DNA from: an uncultured Myxococcales bacterium | GTDB lineage: Bacteria; Myxococcota_A; UBA9042; DTJE01 | Assembly (NCBI GenBank): GCA_903847405.1 | Contig: CAINDP010000012.1 | Span: forward strand, 1 to 63,186 | Direction of reading: 5' to 3' | Length of the DNA stretch: 63,186 nucleotides | In this document: one piece after another, positions 23,768 to 32,030 of the stretch | How positions within the stretch are numbered: position 1 is the stretch's first letter | How the letters are laid out: every line of letters begins with the position of its first letter | Notes under the pieces: generated by a model | What the model was told of the DNA's origin: nothing | The model's input: only the letters and a program-made list of their open reading frames with translations | Database searches by the model: none | Position numbers and translations under genes: made by a program

Positions 23768-24777
23768 GGAGCGCTGGATTCGTTCTGGTCCTGGGGGCCG
23801 TTGTCGTCCCCGGACTGTGTTCTGCGCAGGCTGCCGCGCCGGCGGCTCCGGCCCCGAAGGCGGCGGCCGCTGCCCTAGTCGAATTCGATCGCGTGGTGGC
23901 CAGCGTCGGCACCGAGGCCATCACCCTGTCCGAGGTCCGCGATCGGGCGAAGTCCGCCCGGAACGCCGTTGCGGAGGCCGTCACGTCGTCCCCCGCTCCC
24001 CAGGGGGACGCCCTGAAGACCGCCCTGGACGACCTGGTCGCCGAACGACTGGTCCTGGCCGAGGCGCGCAAGCTGAACCTGGAGGTCCCGGAGGCGGACG
24101 TGGACAAGCACGTCGCGGGCATCAAGGAGCAGAACGGCTGGAGCCAGGACGACTTCGTCGCCGCCGTGAAGATGCTGGGTTTCGCCGACGTGACGGCGTA
24201 TCGCGATCACGCCCGCCGCGAACTGATGAAGTCCCAGGTGCTGCGCGTGAAGGTGGGCTCGAAGGTCCGGATCACCGATCTGGAGGTGGACGAGGAGTTC
24301 GCCCGTCGGCACCCCGGAAACACCGACGAGGAAGTCCACCTGTGGCACATCGCGCTGCTGGTCCCCGACGCCGCCACGGTCGAGGCGATCGACGCGCTGG
24401 CCCGCAAGGCCCGGGAGATCCAGGCCGTCGCCGCGGCGGGCAGCAGGACGTTCGAGGATCTGGCGAAGGAATTCGGCATGGACGGCTCGGCCCAGCGCGG
24501 GGGCGACGTCGGCTGGTTCACGAAGGGGAAACTGCAGGCCGCCTTGGAAAACACCGCCTTCGCCCTGCGCGACAACGAGATTTCGCCCGTCGTCCAGTCG
24601 TCGGTCGGCTTCCACGTCCTGCGGGTCACCGAGCGCCGCCGCGTGCCCCTGGCCGACGCCGAGGAAGCGAAGCGTCGCATCCGGTTCGAACTGTCCGAGG
24701 CCGCCTTCGCCCGCCTGTACGTCGACTACGTGAAGGAACTGAAGGCCTCCGGCCGCGTGATCGTCCGCCCTCTCTGA
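23764..24777 (+). CDS. Periplasmic SurA-like peptidyl-prolyl isomerase
   Basis: Secreted chaperone/isomerase of 337 residues. A cleavable signal peptide (FVLVLGAVVVPGLCSAQA) is followed by a SurA-N-like domain (VEFDRVVASVGTEAITLSEV onward) and one parvulin domain near residues 195-300 with EVHLWHIALLV, GGDVGWFTKGKL and GFHVLRVTERR. Unlike the upstream paralogue it has no lipobox Cys directly after the hydrophobic core, so it is probably soluble in the periplasm. GTG start with GGAGGT upstream, overlapping the previous stop. The downstream DNA is a block of REP-like repeats beginning right after the stop. Confidence 0.88.
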   Translation: MRSAGFVLVLGAVVVPGLCSAQAAAPAAPAPKAAAAALVEFDRVVASVGTEAITLSEVRDRAKSARNAVAEAVTSSPAPQGDALKTALDDLVAERLVLAEARKLNLEVPEADVDKHVAGIKEQNGWSQDDFVAAVKMLGFADVTAYRDHARRELMKSQVLRVKVGSKVRITDLEVDEEFARRHPGNTDEEVHLWHIALLVPDAATVEAIDALARKAREIQAVAAAGSRTFEDLAKEFGMDGSAQRGGDVGWFTKGKLQAALENTAFALRDNEISPVVQSSVGFHVLRVTERRRVPLADAEEAKRRIRFELSEAAFARLYVDYVKELKASGRVIVRPL

Positions 24778-24779
24778 CC

Positions 24780-25145
24780 GAAAATGGGGACAGCCTCCGA
24801 TTTCCGCGAAAATGGGGACAGCCTCCGATGTCCGCAATTCCCCGTTTCCGCAGTGAACTGCTGGACCCCCTGAAGCAGGGCGCTCTCCCCGTCGTCCCAC
24901 GCGGTTCTTGCAAGTCATTGTTTCAACTGCTCACGGCCGGCACCGGAAAAATCGGTGTCTGTCCCCATTTTTCTCTGACCGAAAATGGGGACAGCCTCCG
25001 ATTTCCGCAATTCCCCGTTTCCACAGTGAACTGCTGGAGCCCCTGAAGCAGGGCGCTCTCCCCGTCGTCCCACACGGTTCTCGCAAGTCATTGTTTCATC
25101 AGCGCATGGCTGTCACCTGAAGAATCGGTGTCTGTCCCCATTTCC
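24780..25145 (+). repeat. REP/MITE-like GGGGACAG elements, two tandem copies
   Basis: Two related units of roughly 170-200 bp lie head to tail. Each is bounded on the left by GAAAATGGGGACAGCCTCCG (24780, with an extra 28 bp tandem duplicate at 24808; and 24981) and on the right by its inverted counterpart, AATCGGTGTCTGTCCCCATT (about 24949 and 25124). The roughly 110 bp interiors are nearly identical with scattered substitutions. No transposase is encoded. The same GGGGACAG motif recurs at 39664-39721 and at the right window edge. The structure fits a non-autonomous mobile repeat such as those mobilised by REP-associated tyrosine transposases, which is inference. Confidence 0.75.
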
Positions 25146-25218
25146 TGTTCCCATTTCCCCCCAAAAAACCGGTCGTCAACCACAAGGTCCCGCCCCACCA
25201 ATCCACCGCCGCGAGCGT

Positions 25219-25242
25219 AAGTGGCGGCGCAGCCGTCCACTT
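25219..25242 (+). promoter_or_regulatory. Imperfect inverted repeat upstream of the suf promoter
   Basis: AAGTGG and CCACTT arms enclose an inner GGC/GCC pair, separated by small bulges. It is the first of three adjacent dyads leading into the suf operon promoter. It could be an operator or the end of an upstream transcript. Confidence 0.45.
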
Positions 25243-25252
25243 CATGCGAGCG

Positions 25253-25283
25253 CGTCCGGACCGCCATAAGGTCGGTCCGGACG
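25253..25283 (+). promoter_or_regulatory. Perfect 11-bp inverted repeat just upstream of the suf promoter
   Basis: CGTCCGGACCG and its exact complement are separated by nine bases (ccataaggt). It abuts the next dyad without a gap. It could be a regulator-binding site or a terminator-like hairpin without a T run. Confidence 0.6.
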
Positions 25284-25307
25284 AATCTTGACAAAACTGT
25301 AAAGATT
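25284..25307 (+). promoter_or_regulatory. Candidate operator for the Rrf2-family regulator
   Basis: A 24-bp dyad: AATCTT and AAGATT outer arms, ACA and TGT inner arms, one mismatched base on each side and a four-base centre. It overlaps the -35 box and spacer of the promoter in front of the Rrf2 gene. Dyads of this length at this position are typical of autoregulating Rrf2 proteins such as IscR and SufR. Which of the neighbouring dyads is bound is not decidable here. Confidence 0.6.
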
Positions 25308-25316
25308 GCCCATATT
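25288..25316 (+). promoter_or_regulatory. Promoter of the Rrf2-suf operon
   Basis: Consensus TTGACA (-35), 17 bp spacer, CATATT (-10), about 35 nt before the regulator's ATG. The AT-rich stretch stands out in this GC-rich genome. The candidate operator dyad covers the -35 and most of the spacer, so a bound repressor would block polymerase. Confidence 0.72.
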
Positions 25317-25351
25317 GAACTCGTTGGCGCATGGAGCGCCCGGGAGAACCC

Positions 25352-25840
25352 ATGAAGGTCAGCGCCACGGAAGAGCACGGACTGCGATGCCTGATGCGCC
25401 TGGCGATCGCCTGGAAGGCCGGGGAGTCCGTCACGATCCCCGAGGTGGCCCGGTGCGAAGGAATGTCGCCCCCGTACGCGGCCAAACTGGTCGCGATGCT
25501 GCGGCGGGCGGACCTGGTGCGCAGCGTCCGGGGCGTCAAGGGGGGCGTGGGCCTGTCCCGGGCCCCCGAGAGCATCACGTTGACCCAGGCCATGTCGGCC
25601 CTGGCCGGCTCGCCCGTGCGGACCGGGCCCTGCATGGGACCCGAGGGCGTGCGGTGCGATCGCCAGGGGACCTGCGGCCTGCGGGGCGTGTGGGACCGGG
25701 TGACGACCGTGGTGACCGGGGTCCTGGACGGCGTGACGCTGGCGGACCTGGTGGCGAACGGTCGGAGCGAGGCGGGTGGCGGTGATTCGCGGTCGGGCGT
25801 GGCGGCTCCCGCCCGCTGGTCGTCGGAGCCGAGGGCGTAG
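25352..25840 (+). CDS. Rrf2-family Fe-S-sensing regulator (IscR/SufR-like)
   Basis: Winged-helix regulator of 162 residues at the head of the suf operon. The N-terminus MKVSATEEHGLRCLMRLA and the wing GVKGGVGLSRAPE are typical of Rrf2 proteins. Three cysteines, C94-x7-C102-x5-C108, occupy the place of the IscR cluster ligands (C-x5-C-x5-C), so a [2Fe-2S] or [4Fe-4S] sensor is likely. The ATG at 25352 fits the family N-terminus; one seven codons earlier is an alternative. The gene probably represses its own operon when clusters are sufficient, by analogy with IscR and SufR. The last 30 residues are a low-complexity tail. Confidence 0.9.
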   Translation: MKVSATEEHGLRCLMRLAIAWKAGESVTIPEVARCEGMSPPYAAKLVAMLRRADLVRSVRGVKGGVGLSRAPESITLTQAMSALAGSPVRTGPCMGPEGVRCDRQGTCGLRGVWDRVTTVVTGVLDGVTLADLVANGRSEAGGGDSRSGVAAPARWSSEPRA

Positions 25841-25859: not shown

Positions 25860-26657
25860 ATGAGCGGCAAGGAAGCGACGGACACCCGGACCCCGGTTCT
25901 GGTGGTCAAGGATCTGTGGGCGGGCATCGCGGGGAAGACCATCCTGAAGGGCGTGGACCTGACGGTCATGCCCGGCGAGGTCCACGCCATCATGGGGCGC
26001 AACGGCTCGGGAAAGAGCACGTTGACCAACGTCCTGATGGGCCACCCAGCCTACGAGGTCCAGAAGGGCGAAATCCTCTACCAGGGCCGGAACCTGCTGG
26101 ATCTGGACGTCACCGAGCGGGCGCGGGCGGGGCTGTTCCTGGCCTTCCAGTACCCCGTGGCCGTCCCGGGCGTCACGGTGTCGTCCTTCCTGCGGACCGC
26201 CCTGCGGTCGGGCAAGGGTGTCGACGTGTCCGCCCGCGAATTCCGCAAGACGCTGCTGTCGTCCTTCAAGGAACTGGACATCCCCGCCGCCTTCGCGACC
26301 CGCTACCTGAACGACGGCTTTTCCGGCGGCGAAAAGAAGCGCCTGGAGGTGCTGCAGATGAACCTGCTGGCGCCGACGCTGGCCCTGCTGGACGAAACCG
26401 ACTCGGGCCTCGACATCGACGCCCTGAAGACCGTGTCCGGCGGCATCGTCCGCGCCATCGATCGCGGCGTGTCCGTCATCCTGGTCACGCACTACCAGAG
26501 GATCCTGCAGTACGTGACCCCGCACGTCGTCCACGTCTTCCTGGACGGGCGCATCGTGCGGACCGGCGGGCCCGACCTGGCCCACGAACTGGAATCGAAG
26601 GGCTACGACTGGCTGGACGTCGAGGCGGGCGCCGCCCCGGCCGGAACGCCTGCGTGA
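25860..26657 (+). CDS. sufC: Fe-S cluster assembly ATPase SufC
   Basis: ABC-type ATPase of the SufBCD scaffold, 265 residues. Walker A is GRNGSGKST near residue 45, the signature is [17 protein letters not shown], and Walker B is [16 protein letters not shown], the Glu-Thr-Asp wording being typical of SufC. HYQRIL contains the switch His. It provides the ATP hydrolysis that drives cluster assembly on SufB-SufD. The ATG is preceded by GGAAGGAG. It follows the regulator by 19 bp and precedes sufB by 14 bp. Confidence 0.96.
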
Positions 26658-26671
26658 CCCCGGAGGCTGCG

Positions 26672-28081
26672 ATGGAAACTCCCACCCCCCGCGAACTGGT
26701 CGGCGACTACCAGTACGGGTTTTCCGACGAGGATCACTCGGTCTTCCAGACGGCCCGCGGCCTCCGCGAGGACGTCGTCCGGCAGATCAGCGCCATCAAG
26801 AAGGAACCGGCGTGGATGCTGGAGTTCCGCCTGAAGGCCCTGCAGATGTTCCGGGACCGGCCGATGCCCCGATGGGGCGATTCGAAGGTCCTGGACGCCA
26901 TCGACTTCGAGCGGATCATCTACTACGTGCGCCCGGCGGATCGCCAGGGCAAGACCTGGGACGACGTCCCCAAGGGCATCAAGGAAACCTTCGATCGCCT
27001 GGGCATCCCCGAGGCCGAGCGGAAGTTCCTGGCCGGCGTGTCGGCCCAGTACGAGTCCGAGGTCGTGTACCACTCGATCAAGGCGGAAATCGAAAAACTG
27101 GGCGTGATCTTCCTGGACATGGACTCGGGCCTGCGCGAGCACCCGGACATCGTGCGGAAGTATTTCGCGACGATCATCCCGCCCAACGACAACAAGTTCG
27201 CGTCGTTGAACAGCGCGATGTGGTCCGGCGGGTCCTTCATCTACGTGCCCAAGGGCGTCCACGTGAAGATCCCGCTGCAGGCCTACTTCCGCATCAACGT
27301 GCAGGACATGGGCCAGTTCGAGCGGACCCTGATCATCGCCGACGAGGGCTCGTCCGTGCACTACATCGAAGGCTGCACGGCCCCGACCTACAGCAGCGAC
27401 AGCCTGCACTCGGCCGTGGTGGAGTTGATCGCCCTGAAGGGCGCCCGCATCCGGTACACGACCATCCAGAACTGGTCGAAAAACGTCCTGAACCTGGTGA
27501 CCAAGCGGGCGGTGGCCCACGAGGACGCGTCGGTCGAGTGGGTGGACGGGAACCTGGGGTCGCGCCTGACGATGAAGTACCCGGCCATCCATCTGGTCGG
27601 GCCCCGGGCCCACGGCGAGGTCCTGTCCATCGCCTTCGCAGGCGCCGGGCAGCATCAGGACGCCGGCGCCAAGGTCATCCACGCGGCGCCCGACACGACG
27701 TCCACGATCACGTCCAAGTCCATCAGCAAGGACGGCGGACGGGCGTCCTACCGCGGGCTGGTGAAGGTCCACCCGGAGGCTCACGGCGCGAAGGTCAACG
27801 TCCGGTGCGACGCGCTGCTGCTGGACGAAACGTCGCGATCCGACACCTACCCGACGATGGAAATCGCCAGCGACGACGCCGCGATCGGCCACGAGGCCAC
27901 GGTGTCGAAGGTCGGCGACGACCAGATGTTCTACCTCCGCAGCCGCGGCCTGTCGGAGGAGGAAGCCATGCTGATGATCGTCAACGGGTTCATCGAGCCC
28001 TTCGTGAAGGAACTGCCCATGGAGTACGCGGTGGAACTGAACCGCCTGATCCAGTTGGAGATGTCGGGCTCTGTGGGCTAG
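26672..28081 (+). CDS. sufB: Fe-S cluster assembly scaffold SufB
   Basis: Core beta-helix scaffold subunit of SufBCD, 469 residues, the usual length. The N-terminal [15 protein letters not shown], the [16 protein letters not shown] block, [20 protein letters not shown] (with a conserved Cys) and the C-terminal [20 protein letters not shown] are all characteristic. Clusters are built at the SufB-SufD interface with sulfur delivered by SufS/SufU. ATG with GGAGG six bases upstream. sufD follows after nine bases. Confidence 0.97.
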
Positions 28082-28090
28082 GAGCGAAGA

Positions 28091-29317
28091 ATGAAGCGAT
28101 TTGACGACGAACCGTGCTTCCTCGCCGACCGTCGGTTGCTGGCTGCGGCCCGGGCCCTGGAACTGCCCCTGCCGGACCGCTCGCTGCATCGATTCCGGTT
28201 CACGGATCCGGCGGCGCTGATGCCGTCGGCGGGGGTGGCGTCGGCCCTGGCCGTCCCGTCGCCTCCGTGGACCGTCGAGGTGGAGGTGTCGCCCGAGGCC
28301 CTGGCGTCCGGCGTGTCCGTCCTGGACTTCCCGACGGCCCTGGCCCGGATGCCGGCCCTGGTGGCCGAGCACCTGGGCCGCATCGCCCCTCCGGACGACG
28401 CGTTCCTGGCCCTGAACCTCGCCACCTTCAGCGGGGGCGCGGTGGTCCACGTGCCCGCGGGGGTGGTCGTGCCCGCGCCGATCGTCCTGAGGGTGCGGCC
28501 GGGGTCCGCCGAGGGCGCCGTGGCCTGCGGGCGGACGCTGGTGCTGGTGGACGCCGGCGCCACGGCGACGGTCCTGGAGGAAATGGACCTGGCGGCCGGC
28601 CTGGGCAACGCCGTCACGGAAGCGATCCTCGGGGCGGGGGCCACCCTGGTCCACGGCCGTTTCGAAACCGTGGCCCGGGGCGCGGCGTCGTTTTCCCGGG
28701 CGTGCTACTCCGTGGGGCGTGACGCCTCCCTGACCCACGCCCACGTCCTCCTGCCGTCGGGGCTGATCAAGGCCGAGGCCGTGCCGATCCTGGCGGGGAC
28801 GGGCGCCCGCTCCGAGGGGCTGGTGCTGTCGCTGGCCGGCGGTCGCGCCCGGTCGGACTTCCGGGCCGTGGAGGACCACGCCGTTGGCGACACCGAAAGC
28901 CGTGTCATCTACCGGGCCGTGGCCCTGGGGCGTGGCAGGACGACGTTCACCGGGTTGCTGAAGATCCGCGAGGGCGCGGCACGCTCGGCTGCCTACGAGG
29001 AGGCGAGGTCCCTGCTGCTGTCCCGGACGGCCAGCGCCGACGTGCTGCCCGAGCTGGAAATCCTGAACCACGACGTCCGCTGCACCCACGGGGCCGCGGT
29101 GGCGCCGGTGGACGAGGACGCGGTGTTCTACCTGCGGACGCGCGGCCTGTCCCGGGACGAGGCGGAAGCCCTGCTGGTGGAAGGGTTCGTGGAGGCCGTG
29201 GCGTCGCGGTTCCCGTCCGAGGCCCTGGCCGACCGGGCCCGTGCGCGGTTGCGGGAGGAACTGGCCCTGGCGCGTGGCGTGGTTGCCCTGGCATCCGGCG
29301 CGCCGGCCGGTCCTTGA
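28091..29317 (+). CDS. sufD: Fe-S cluster assembly protein SufD
   Basis: SufB paralogue of 408 residues that pairs with SufB and binds SufC. The N-terminal half is divergent and Ala/Pro-rich. The C-terminal half carries the SufBD signature: GRTTFTGLLKIREGA, ADVLPELEILNHDVRCTHGA (the His and Cys near the cluster site) and FYLRTRGLSRDEAEALLVEGF. Slightly overlong C-terminal helix. It lies between sufB and a small Rieske gene in the same transcription unit. Confidence 0.94.
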   Translation: MKRFDDEPCFLADRRLLAAARALELPLPDRSLHRFRFTDPAALMPSAGVASALAVPSPPWTVEVEVSPEALASGVSVLDFPTALARMPALVAEHLGRIAPPDDAFLALNLATFSGGAVVHVPAGVVVPAPIVLRVRPGSAEGAVACGRTLVLVDAGATATVLEEMDLAAGLGNAVTEAILGAGATLVHGRFETVARGAASFSRACYSVGRDASLTHAHVLLPSGLIKAEAVPILAGTGARSEGLVLSLAGGRARSDFRAVEDHAVGDTESRVIYRAVALGRGRTTFTGLLKIREGAARSAAYEEARSLLLSRTASADVLPELEILNHDVRCTHGAAVAPVDEDAVFYLRTRGLSRDEAEALLVEGFVEAVASRFPSEALADRARARLREELALARGVVALASGAPAGP

Positions 29318-29345
29318 GGCGGGGGGGCTTTCCCGGAGGGGTTCG

Positions 29346-29654
29346 ATGGTGCACGATGTCGCCGCGGTTTCCGATCTGCCGGAAGGAACGGGCGTGACCG
29401 TCTTCGTCGAGGGCCAGCCGGTGCTGCTGGTTCGCGTCGGGGACCGGGTGTTCGCGACGGAAGGCCTGTGCAGCCACGAGGAGCAGCCCCTGGAAGGGGG
29501 CTCGCTGATCGGCCCGACCGAGTGGCTGTGTCCGCACCACGGCGGCGCGCTGGACCTGGCGACCGGGCGGCCCACCCGGATGCCGGTGTGCTCGTCCGTC
29601 GAAACGTTCCCGGTGCGGCTGGAGGGCGGTCGCGTGCTGGTGGTGATGGATTGA
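29346..29654 (+). CDS. Small Rieske [2Fe-2S] protein in the suf operon
   Basis: Single-domain Rieske protein of 102 residues, comparable to NirD-like or biphenyl-type ferredoxins. Cluster ligands are C42-x-H44 (GLCSHEE) and C62-x2-H65 (WLCPHHGG), with the short 15-20 residue spacing of soluble Rieske ferredoxins. It has no signal peptide, so it is cytosolic. Its place between sufD and the SufS-SufU fusion suggests a role as electron donor or as an early cluster acceptor; this is inference from position. The ATG at 29346 follows a GGAGGGG site. Confidence 0.88.
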   Translation: MVHDVAAVSDLPEGTGVTVFVEGQPVLLVRVGDRVFATEGLCSHEEQPLEGGSLIGPTEWLCPHHGGALDLATGRPTRMPVCSSVETFPVRLEGGRVLVVMD

Positions 29655-29689
29655 TCCAGTCGATGGGGACTGTTGCCGGGAGTGCGGCC

Positions 29690-31423
29690 GTGCTGGACGT
29701 GGAACGAATCCGAGCCGACTTCCCGATCCTGTCCCGCACCATGAACGGGCATCCGCTGGTCTACCTGGACAGCGCCGCGACCAGCCAGAAGCCCCGGGCG
29801 GTCATCGACGCGCTGGTGCGCTACTACGAAACTCTGAACGCCAACGTCCATCGCGGCGTCTACCGCCTGGCGGAGGATGCCACCCGGGAATACGAGGCCG
29901 CCCGGACGAAGGTGGCGGCGTTCGTCGGAGCCCCTTCGCCTGCCGGGGTCGTCTTCGTCCGCAACGCGACCGAGGGCATCAACCTGGTGGCCCGGGCCTG
30001 GGGCGATCGGAACCTCCGGGAGGGCGACGAGATCCTCGTCACCGCGATGGAGCACCACTCGAACCTGGTGCCGTGGCACCTGCTGGCGCGCCGCACCGGC
30101 GCCCGCGTGCGGGCCGTGGGGATCACGGAGGACGGCCGCCTGGACATGGCGGGCCTCGATGTCCTGCTGAACTCCCGGACGCGCCTGGTGGCCCTCAGCC
30201 ACGTTTCGAACGTGCTGGGAACGATCAACCCCGTCGCCGACATCATCCGTCGCGCCCACGCGGTCGGCGCCGCGGTGCTGGTGGACGGCGCCCAGTCGGT
30301 GCCCCACCTGCCCGTCGACGTGGCCGCCCTGGGGGCGGATTTCCTGGCGTTTTCGGGCCACAAGATGCTGGGCCCGACGGGCGTGGGCGTCCTGGTGGTC
30401 CGACCCGATCGGTACGACGAAATGGACCCGTTCCTGGGCGGCGGCGAAATGATCCGCGAGGTCACCCTGACCTCCTCCACGTACGCGGATCCGCCGTGGC
30501 GCTACGAGGCCGGCACCCCGAACATCGCGGGCGTCATCGCCCTGGGCGCCGCCGTGGACTACCTGCGCGCGATCGGGATGGACGCCGTCGCCCAGCACGA
30601 TCGCGACCTCGGGGCCCTGGCCCGCCGCCGCCTGTCCGAGGTCTCCGGGCTGCACCTGCTGGGCCCGACCCCCGGTCCGGACGCCACCGGCGGGGTCGCC
30701 ACCTTCACGATGGACGGCGTGCATCCCCACGACATCGCCCAGGCGATGGACGGTCGGGGCATCGCCGTGCGCGCCGGCCACCACTGCTGCCAGCCCCTGA
30801 TGGCCCGCCTGGGCCTGGCCGCGACGACGCGCGCGTCGTTCTACCTGTACAACACGGAATCCGAGGTGGAACTGCTGGCGGCGGCCCTGGAGGACGTGGC
30901 GCGCACCTACGCCCCCCGGCCCGCTTCGGTCCCGGCGCCCGACCCCGCGTCGGCCGCGGTCGAGGTCCCCGACGACGAGCTGTTCCGGGAGGTCGTCCTG
31001 GACCACTACATGCACCCGGCGGGCCGCGAGCCCCTCCCGGGGCCGGCGGTCGAGTGGCACGGCAAGAACCCGCTGTGCGGCGACGAGGTCACCCTGCGGC
31101 TGCAGACCGAGGACGGCCGGATCGCGGGCCTGCAGGTCGTCGGCCACGGGTGCTCCATCTCGGTCGCCTCGGGGTCCATGCTGGCCGAGCGCCTGAAGGG
31201 CCGCACGCTGGACGAGGCGCGGCGCCTGTTGCGGGGGGTCAAGGCGATGTTCCGCGGCGAGCCGCTCCCCGACGATCTGGACCTGGGCGACCTGGCGGCC
31301 CTCCAGGGGGTCAAGGACCTGCCCGTTCGCGTCAAGTGCGCCCTGCTGGCATGGACCACGCTGGAAGAAGCCCTGGAAGCACCGAATCCCCCGGAGGATC
31401 ATCATGGCCACAGCCACCCGTGA
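29690..31423 (+). CDS. Fused cysteine desulfurase-sulfur acceptor, SufS-SufU
   Basis: Single polypeptide of 577 residues. Residues 1-405 are a group II cysteine desulfurase (SufS): YLDSAATSQKP, MEHHSNLVPW, PLP Lys225 in FSGHKMLGPTG, and active-site Cys366 in RAGHHCCQPLM. A Pro/Ala linker (about 406-430) leads to a complete SufU domain with Cys463-Gly-Asp (NPLCGDEVTLRL), Cys488 (GHGCSISVASGSM) and Cys550 (VKCALLAW), i.e. all zinc/sulfur-transfer ligands. The usual pair SufS + SufU is thus fused. I chose the GTG at 29690 because GGGAG is seven bases upstream and the N-terminus then matches SufS (LDVERIRADFPIL); an ATG at 29663 is possible. It overlaps the next gene by 20 bp. Confidence 0.93.
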   Translation: MLDVERIRADFPILSRTMNGHPLVYLDSAATSQKPRAVIDALVRYYETLNANVHRGVYRLAEDATREYEAARTKVAAFVGAPSPAGVVFVRNATEGINLVARAWGDRNLREGDEILVTAMEHHSNLVPWHLLARRTGARVRAVGITEDGRLDMAGLDVLLNSRTRLVALSHVSNVLGTINPVADIIRRAHAVGAAVLVDGAQSVPHLPVDVAALGADFLAFSGHKMLGPTGVGVLVVRPDRYDEMDPFLGGGEMIREVTLTSSTYADPPWRYEAGTPNIAGVIALGAAVDYLRAIGMDAVAQHDRDLGALARRRLSEVSGLHLLGPTPGPDATGGVATFTMDGVHPHDIAQAMDGRGIAVRAGHHCCQPLMARLGLAATTRASFYLYNTESEVELLAAALEDVARTYAPRPASVPAPDPASAAVEVPDDELFREVVLDHYMHPAGREPLPGPAVEWHGKNPLCGDEVTLRLQTEDGRIAGLQVVGHGCSISVASGSMLAERLKGRTLDEARRLLRGVKAMFRGEPLPDDLDLGDLAALQGVKDLPVRVKCALLAWTTLEEALEAPNPPEDHHGHSHP

Positions 31424-32030
31424 GGCCCTGTACGAGGCGCTGTCCGCGGTCATCGACCCCCGGACGGGCCTGTCGATCGTGGACCTGGGCCTGCTGTTCG
31501 ACGTGGACGTCGAGGACGACGGGCGCACCGCGATCGTGAAGGTCGCGCAGGTCCCGATGGCGCGCCGCCTGCTGTCCCGCATCCGCGGCGCCATCGAGGC
31601 AGCGGGGGATTTCGAGGACGGCCGCCTGGAGTTCGTGAAGGATCCGCCGTGGCTCCCCGAGATCATGGCCACGCCCGAGGCCCAGGCCCGTCTGGCCGCG
31701 GTCGCCACCGAACCGATGCCGCCCGCCGAGGTCGACGACCTCTGGGCGCAGGTGGGGCAGGTGATGGACCCGGAAATGGGCATGACGCTGGTCGAACTGG
31801 GGCTGATCTACGGCATCGACCTGGACGAAGCGGGGCGGGTGGCGACCATCCGGATGACGCTCACCTCGCCCATGTGCCCGGTCGGGCCCTACCTCGTCGA
31901 GGCGGTGAAGCAGGCCGCGCTGCTGGCGATGGGCATCGAGGAGGTGTCCGTCGATCTGGTCTGGGACCCGCCGTGGGATCCCCGCACCATGGCCTCGGAA
32001 GACGCGCAGGCGGATCTGGGATTGATCTAG
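31404..32030 (+). CDS. SufT-like protein with two DUF59 (MIP18) domains
   Basis: Protein of 208 residues made of two DUF59 units. The second (about 110-190) is canonical: MDPEMGMTLVELGLIY and TLTSPMCPVGPYL with its Thr and Cys, then WDPPWDP. The first (about 8-85) keeps IDPRTGLSIVDLGLLF but has lost the T-x-CP motif (VAQVPMARR). DUF59 proteins such as SufT assist Fe-S cluster maturation. It is the last gene of the suf operon, and its stop shares the bases CTAG with the stop of the convergent MATE gene. Confidence 0.87.
   Translation: MATATREALYEALSAVIDPRTGLSIVDLGLLFDVDVEDDGRTAIVKVAQVPMARRLLSRIRGAIEAAGDFEDGRLEFVKDPPWLPEIMATPEAQARLAAVATEPMPPAEVDDLWAQVGQVMDPEMGMTLVELGLIYGIDLDEAGRVATIRMTLTSPMCPVGPYLVEAVKQAALLAMGIEEVSVDLVWDPPWDPRTMASEDAQADLGLI

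Follow-up and report, generated by a model that had tools for sequence, protein, structure and literature searches.

The window analysed here, a stretch of 63,186 nucleotides from an uncultured Myxococcales bacterium (contig CAINDP010000012.1), carries a suf operon headed by a gene for a predicted Rrf2 repressor. This gene (25352..25840, + strand) encodes 162 amino acids of the EEYGLRC type (EE type below) and matches the Pfam Rrf2 profile with 2.3e-29 (102.6 bits, cut-off 30), and of the NCBIfam models only rrf2_super (85.2 bits, cut-off 73.3); an alternative longer start at 25331 is possible. It is followed on the + strand by sufC (25863..26657, NCBIfam sufC 3.2e-95), sufB (26672..28081, NCBIfam sufB 2.7e-215), a sufD-like gene (28091..29317) that matches Pfam SUFBD_core and stays below the NCBIfam sufD cut-off, a Rieske-type ferredoxin-like gene (29340..29654) below curated cut-offs, sufS and sufU fused in one reading frame (29663..31423), and a sufT-like gene (31404..32030) with two DUF59-type stretches (FeS_assembly_P) in one chain, the last two assigned by profile matches. 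In the fusion, sufS covers amino acids 15-416 and SUF_scaf_2 amino acids 438-571, and in four relatives (G001, G002, G005 and G009) the two genes appear, from alignment positions, to be fused in frame in the same way.

Three inverted repeats, none assigned to a strand, precede the Rrf2 gene. The first is an imperfect hairpin (25219..25242), AAGTGGCGGC-GCA-GCCGTCCACTT, its downstream arm reading GCCG-T-CCACTT with one base bulged. The second is a perfect 11-bp inverted repeat, CGTCCGGACCG-N9-CGGTCCGGACG (25253..25283), and the third a 24-bp dyad, AATCTTGACA-AAAC-TGTAAAGATT (25284..25307), with the core TTGAC-N6-GTM and arms that pair at 9 of 10 positions. A -35 box, TTGACA (25288..25293, + strand), lies within the left half of the dyad by its resemblance to the consensus and its position in orthologues, and a candidate -10 box, CATATT (25311..25316, + strand), follows 17 nt past it; several orthologues from the family have a similar sequence with this spacing. 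The dyad spans TTGACA and 14 of the 17 spacer bases. All three elements of the preliminary description exist, the perfect repeat and the dyad at exactly the stated positions, but the gapless run described there holds for the second and third only, which abut, and is wrong for the whole, because 10 nt (CATGCGAGCG) part the hairpin from the 11-bp repeat.

As a bare palindrome the dyad is unexceptional, because shuffled sequences yield as many or more of the same quality. Requiring 10-bp arms with at most one mismatch and a loop of 3-4, we counted 9 such dyads in the window and 9-19 in 12 dinucleotide shuffles, and when the local 192 nt were shuffled 1000 times, 15 of the shuffles contained one as good. 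Equally good dyads being so common in the window, the case for an operator had to rest on comparison. The repeat at 25253-25283 is the only perfect 11-bp repeat with a loop of 3-9 in the window (0-2 in shuffles), and one of 1000 local shuffles contains such a repeat. Each of the two sequences occurs once in the 5.65-Mb genome with up to three mismatches allowed. An Rfam search of 24700-25500 gave just two sub-threshold miRNA matches, judged to be chance. Judging from sequence, a function is strongly supported for the dyad alone among the three repeats; the first hairpin is real as sequence, and no support for a function was found for it.

The CGTCCGGACCG repeat had been proposed as a second operator or a boundary element, which would be compatible with the explanation of the dyad given below but which we consider improbable. 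It is perfect, locally rare and directly adjacent to the operator dyad, and two GTCCGGAC palindromes lie within it at a distance of 21 bp. On the other hand, none of eight family and order relatives, among them a congener with an 83% identical regulator, has it as an inverted repeat; the congener L003 keeps the left arm only (CGTCCGGACC). The element lies upstream of the promoter and therefore outside the suf transcript, and it is not followed by a T-run as is typical of a terminator. Nothing supports the GTCCGGACCG repeat as a second operator, given its single occurrence in the genome and its absence as an inverted repeat from the eight relatives. Further upstream, between a PpiC-type gene and the suf promoter, we observed a REP-like 173-nt tandem duplication with GGGGACAG/CTGTCCCC inverted elements (24779-25158).

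The family and order relatives of the regulator all head sufC-sufB operons, and the dyad is kept over the -35 box in relatives: AATCTTGACAAAACTGTAAAGATT in the window, and ATACTTGACACTTTAGTAGAGAAT, ATACTTGACAAAAGGATAAAGATT, AAACTTGACAAATAAGTCAAGATT, AATCTTGACATATCAGTAAACTTT, AATCTTGACAAAAAAGTAAAAATT and others elsewhere. Wider loci were collected from a GTDB scan and a search of 379 genomes by phylum, the phyla being taken from organism labels. The EE-type loci come from Myxococcota, Latescibacterota, Gemmatimonadota, Omnitrophota, Zixiibacteriota, Electryoneota, Ignavibacteriota, Planctomycetota, Melainabacteria and Bdellovibrionota. A KAC-N6-GTM core is present within 200 nt upstream in 43 of the 49 suf operons headed by an EE-type Rrf2 (about ten phyla), and most of the six loci without the strict core have a near match. 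In the T[TG]AC context a spacing of 6 occurs in 33 of these 49 loci, and every other spacing in 0-6. A set of 53 loci, which still included four RisR-type loci that the set of 49 excludes, has spacing 6 in 44 (shuffle mean 8.3, maximum 15) and other spacings in 1-17. Spacing 11 also exceeds the shuffles at EE-type loci, as does 12 at RisR-type loci, which we put down to the recurrence of half-site letters in the flanks. The consensus across loci is AATCTTGAC-N6-GTMMAGATT, the right half being looser than the left. A score for the 24-bp dyad reaches 15 of 18 in 76 of 78 loci, which is descriptive only, the motif having served to fit the score.

The left half of the dyad is constrained by the -35 box as well, which counts against an operator reading, and TTGACA sits in this half in the window and in many relatives. 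The conserved sequence could then be just a good sigma-70 promoter (TTGACA plus an AT-rich spacer), with the dyad as a by-product. However, when the left half was picked blind to the right, arm complementarity was 0.55 at spacer 6 and 0.19-0.32 elsewhere, in a scan that set a few sites wrongly, that of the window among them, which dyad scoring later put right. For the outer five arm positions, upstream of the -35 box and in the spacer, complementarity was 0.52 at spacer 6 and at most 0.37 at other spacers; since it peaks only there, the symmetry is conserved past the -35 hexamer. Four Myxococcota loci (L017-L019 and L028) keep a symmetric TAC-N6-GTAT without TTGACA, and the suf promoters of the RisR type have N7 and never N6. 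A promoter alone is thus already disfavoured, and we leave it only the slimmest chance.

The dyad is also found where the rrf2 gene stands last in the suf operon, in loci from Acidobacteriota, Bacteroidota and Armatimonadota. Its position upstream of sufB in these operons was predicted ahead of inspection. The strict pattern is there in 13 of 17 loci (shuffle maximum 4), one of which has no upstream sequence, so that 16 can be scored, and spacings other than 6 occur in 0-3 loci. By the dyad score, all 16 loci having upstream sequence carry it. The region upstream of rrf2 itself shows no N6 enrichment in rrf2-last loci (8/42, shuffle mean 6.6).

The spacing follows the regulator type. TDYG-type regulators that head suf have N7 in 28 of 28 cases and N6 in 0 of 28. 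Four genomes (G056, G242, G266 and G337) each hold both types, and there the TDYG type heads suf with N7, N6 going with the EE type, which in three of the four precedes an ApbC/Mrp-like Fe-S carrier gene (L124 being the member tested). In the tree, a branch with an SH-aLRT of 97 separates the TDYG set from the rest, the window regulator included, and the constraint of the EE-type set to one clade is not rejected (p-AU 0.71). The window genome has no TDYG-type match at 1e-25. The TDYG regulators, sisters of the EE type, appear to include Myxococcus RisR, an assignment made from the published motif and cysteine description. In M. xanthus, footprinting shows RisR binding at suf over the -35 and -10 boxes with the motif T(t/g)GAC-N7-GTCC(t/a), and holo-RisR represses suf and is thought to occlude RNA polymerase there (PMC9973013); the N7 of the TDYG loci agrees with this motif. 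The window regulator is not of this type, since it lies outside the TDYG clade and its site, like those of its EE-type relatives, has a spacer of 6 and not GAC-N7-GTC.

The same data bear on whether the dyad serves as operator for some other regulator, such as a second Rrf2 or an iron regulator, and not for the adjacent gene's product. The genome does hold further, more distant Rrf2 paralogues, which would allow this, but three of them have no N6 site upstream of themselves. Moreover, the dyad goes with EE-type Rrf2 across phyla and several operon layouts, with a spacing that differs between the regulator types. We therefore regard another regulator as very unlikely. The preliminary description had named the dyad as a candidate operator of the adjacent Rrf2, to be given up if relatives did not keep it. 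Its conservation in about ten phyla, in step with the regulator type, supports this assignment. Since the same palindrome accompanies this type of repressor in about ten phyla, the repressor encoded beside the dyad at 25284-25307 very probably binds there.

The suggested search for the dyad at other Fe-S genes gave a divided answer, positive in relatives and negative in the genome of the window, which has a single site. In one Myxococcota family, EE-type Rrf2 genes with an N6 dyad head ApbC/Mrp-like Fe-S carrier operons (seven loci: L015, L124, L127-L129, L136 and L139), and at one further locus (L022) an EE-type Rrf2 with an N6 dyad adjoins an ErpA-like gene. A local autorepressor circuit is likely in the window genome because it has one such dyad. 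A pattern search with the relaxed core CTTKAC-N6-GTMAAG, one mismatch allowed, found 18 further places in the genome, mostly CTGGAC/GTCAAG, and 145 in the backward-read control; being fewer than in the control, the 18 were taken as background and not as further operators. Five genomes of the family without SufB, by the search used, are also without a close homologue of the regulator.

The regulator has the residues expected of a DNA-binding Fe-S protein of the Rrf2 family. Its wing motif (Arg/Lys plus Gx2GGx2L) reads RGVKGGVGL, with R60, G61 and G64 in 91 of 91 regulators. Its notable residues are Glu8, Cys13, Lys45, Arg60, Cys94, Cys102 and Cys108; the last three are the putative cluster-binding cysteines, and they, Lys45 and Arg60 are kept in 90-91 of 91, which agrees with the earlier description of the regulator as Cys-ligated. 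Part of the conservation of Glu8 and Cys13 among the GTDB loci follows from the pattern used to find them, and it was rechecked in 25 Myxococcota loci from a whole-protein search that was not motif-selected. ScNsrR ligates its cluster with Asp8 and has Lys45 at the major and Arg60 in the minor groove of the DNA (PMC9338935). In the PDB match, residue 7 aligns with residue 7 of NsrR, and Glu8 falls at residue 8. By this analogy, Glu8 and the three cysteines may hold the cluster. The NCBIfam equivalog cut-offs for IscR, NsrR, RirA, CymR (65.8 bits, cut-off 195) and the Xanthomonas-type suf regulator are not reached by the window regulator.

Our analysis suggests, with a probability of roughly 0.88 for the explanation as a whole, that the adjacent Rrf2 in its cluster-loaded form sits on the dyad and represses suf as a local feedback. 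A homodimer, most likely cluster-loaded, would bind the half-sites AATCTTGAC and GTAAAGATT, its wings and recognition helices lying over the -35 box and the greater part of the spacer, which would exclude RNA polymerase. When the Fe-S supply drops through iron shortage or oxidative damage, the cluster would be lost and the apo-protein would leave, so that rrf2-sufCBD-Rieske-sufSU-sufT could be transcribed, closing a local negative feedback loop. What the sequences themselves show is the dyad, its conservation and one-base spacing specificity, its tie to this type of regulator and to Fe-S genes, and the conservation of the putative ligands; binding, repression, the dependence on the holo-protein and the cluster type are what we infer here. 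That the holo-dimer would repress from the dyad and cluster loss relieve it is a polarity carried over by analogy, because the characterised relative is RisR and not a member of the EE clade.

The locus resembles the RisR system in its Rrf2 repressor heading suf, three conserved cysteines, AT-rich flanks and an imperfect palindrome with a GAC...GTC core over the promoter (PMC9973013). RisR differs in its N7 spacer and GGAC/GTCC half-sites, the window having N6 and TTGAC/GTMAAG, and in its apparent type, TDYG against EEYGLRC, which form separate clades in the tree. TDYG-type proteins have an acidic Asp where the window regulator has Glu8. The E. coli IscR type 1 site is similar as well: IscR is an Rrf2 protein with a three-Cys cluster site, and a GAC...GTC palindrome marks the promoter of the Fe-S operon to which its gene belongs. 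For this site the consensus is ATASYYGACTRWWWYAGTCGGSTAT with an N7 spacer, whereas the window site has N6; the residues at recognition positions differ (Glu and Gln instead of Ala and Lys), and the IscR equivalog scores 59.4 bits against a cut-off of 207.55. Streptomyces NsrR and RsrR are comparable too, NsrR having an acidic residue 8 as cluster ligand (Asp8) and Lys45 and Arg60 at the DNA (PMC9338935), but their targets are NO detoxification and redox, the NsrR operator is 23 bp long, and the NsrR equivalog stays at 41.6 bits (cut-off 182). The Xanthomonas-type SUF regulator (TIGR02944) is likewise an Rrf2 protein encoded with suf genes, but its model gives 63.5 bits against 110.65.

We lean, with some reserve, towards regarding the EEYGLRC-type Rrf2 proteins as a separate, apparently uncharacterised class of Fe-S sensors in about ten phyla, with Glu8, three cysteines, an invariant Cys13 and a 24-bp operator of their own, which together with the RisR type may form a natural one-base spacing code separating two Fe-S circuits per cell. 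Among the papers searched, none was found that joins AATCTTGAC with Rrf2, and a prediction of this motif that is unpublished or stands only in a database may exist. The operator would provide a sequence signature of Fe-S homeostasis control in many uncultured phyla, for which, to our knowledge, no regulator site for this control is known. The one-base difference in spacing, kept in genomes with both sister repressors, makes operator discrimination by related Rrf2 dimers directly testable.

Two further sites were observed beside these. One Rrf2 paralogue of the window genome (L143, G000:C179:49000-56500) has TTGAC-GCCGTTA-GTCGA, a GAC-N7-GTC, just upstream of its start, which is perhaps its own autoregulatory site. 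In six suf promoters (L050, L058, L017-L019 and L173) two N6 dyads stand in tandem about 24-40 bp apart, an arrangement that suggests cooperative binding.
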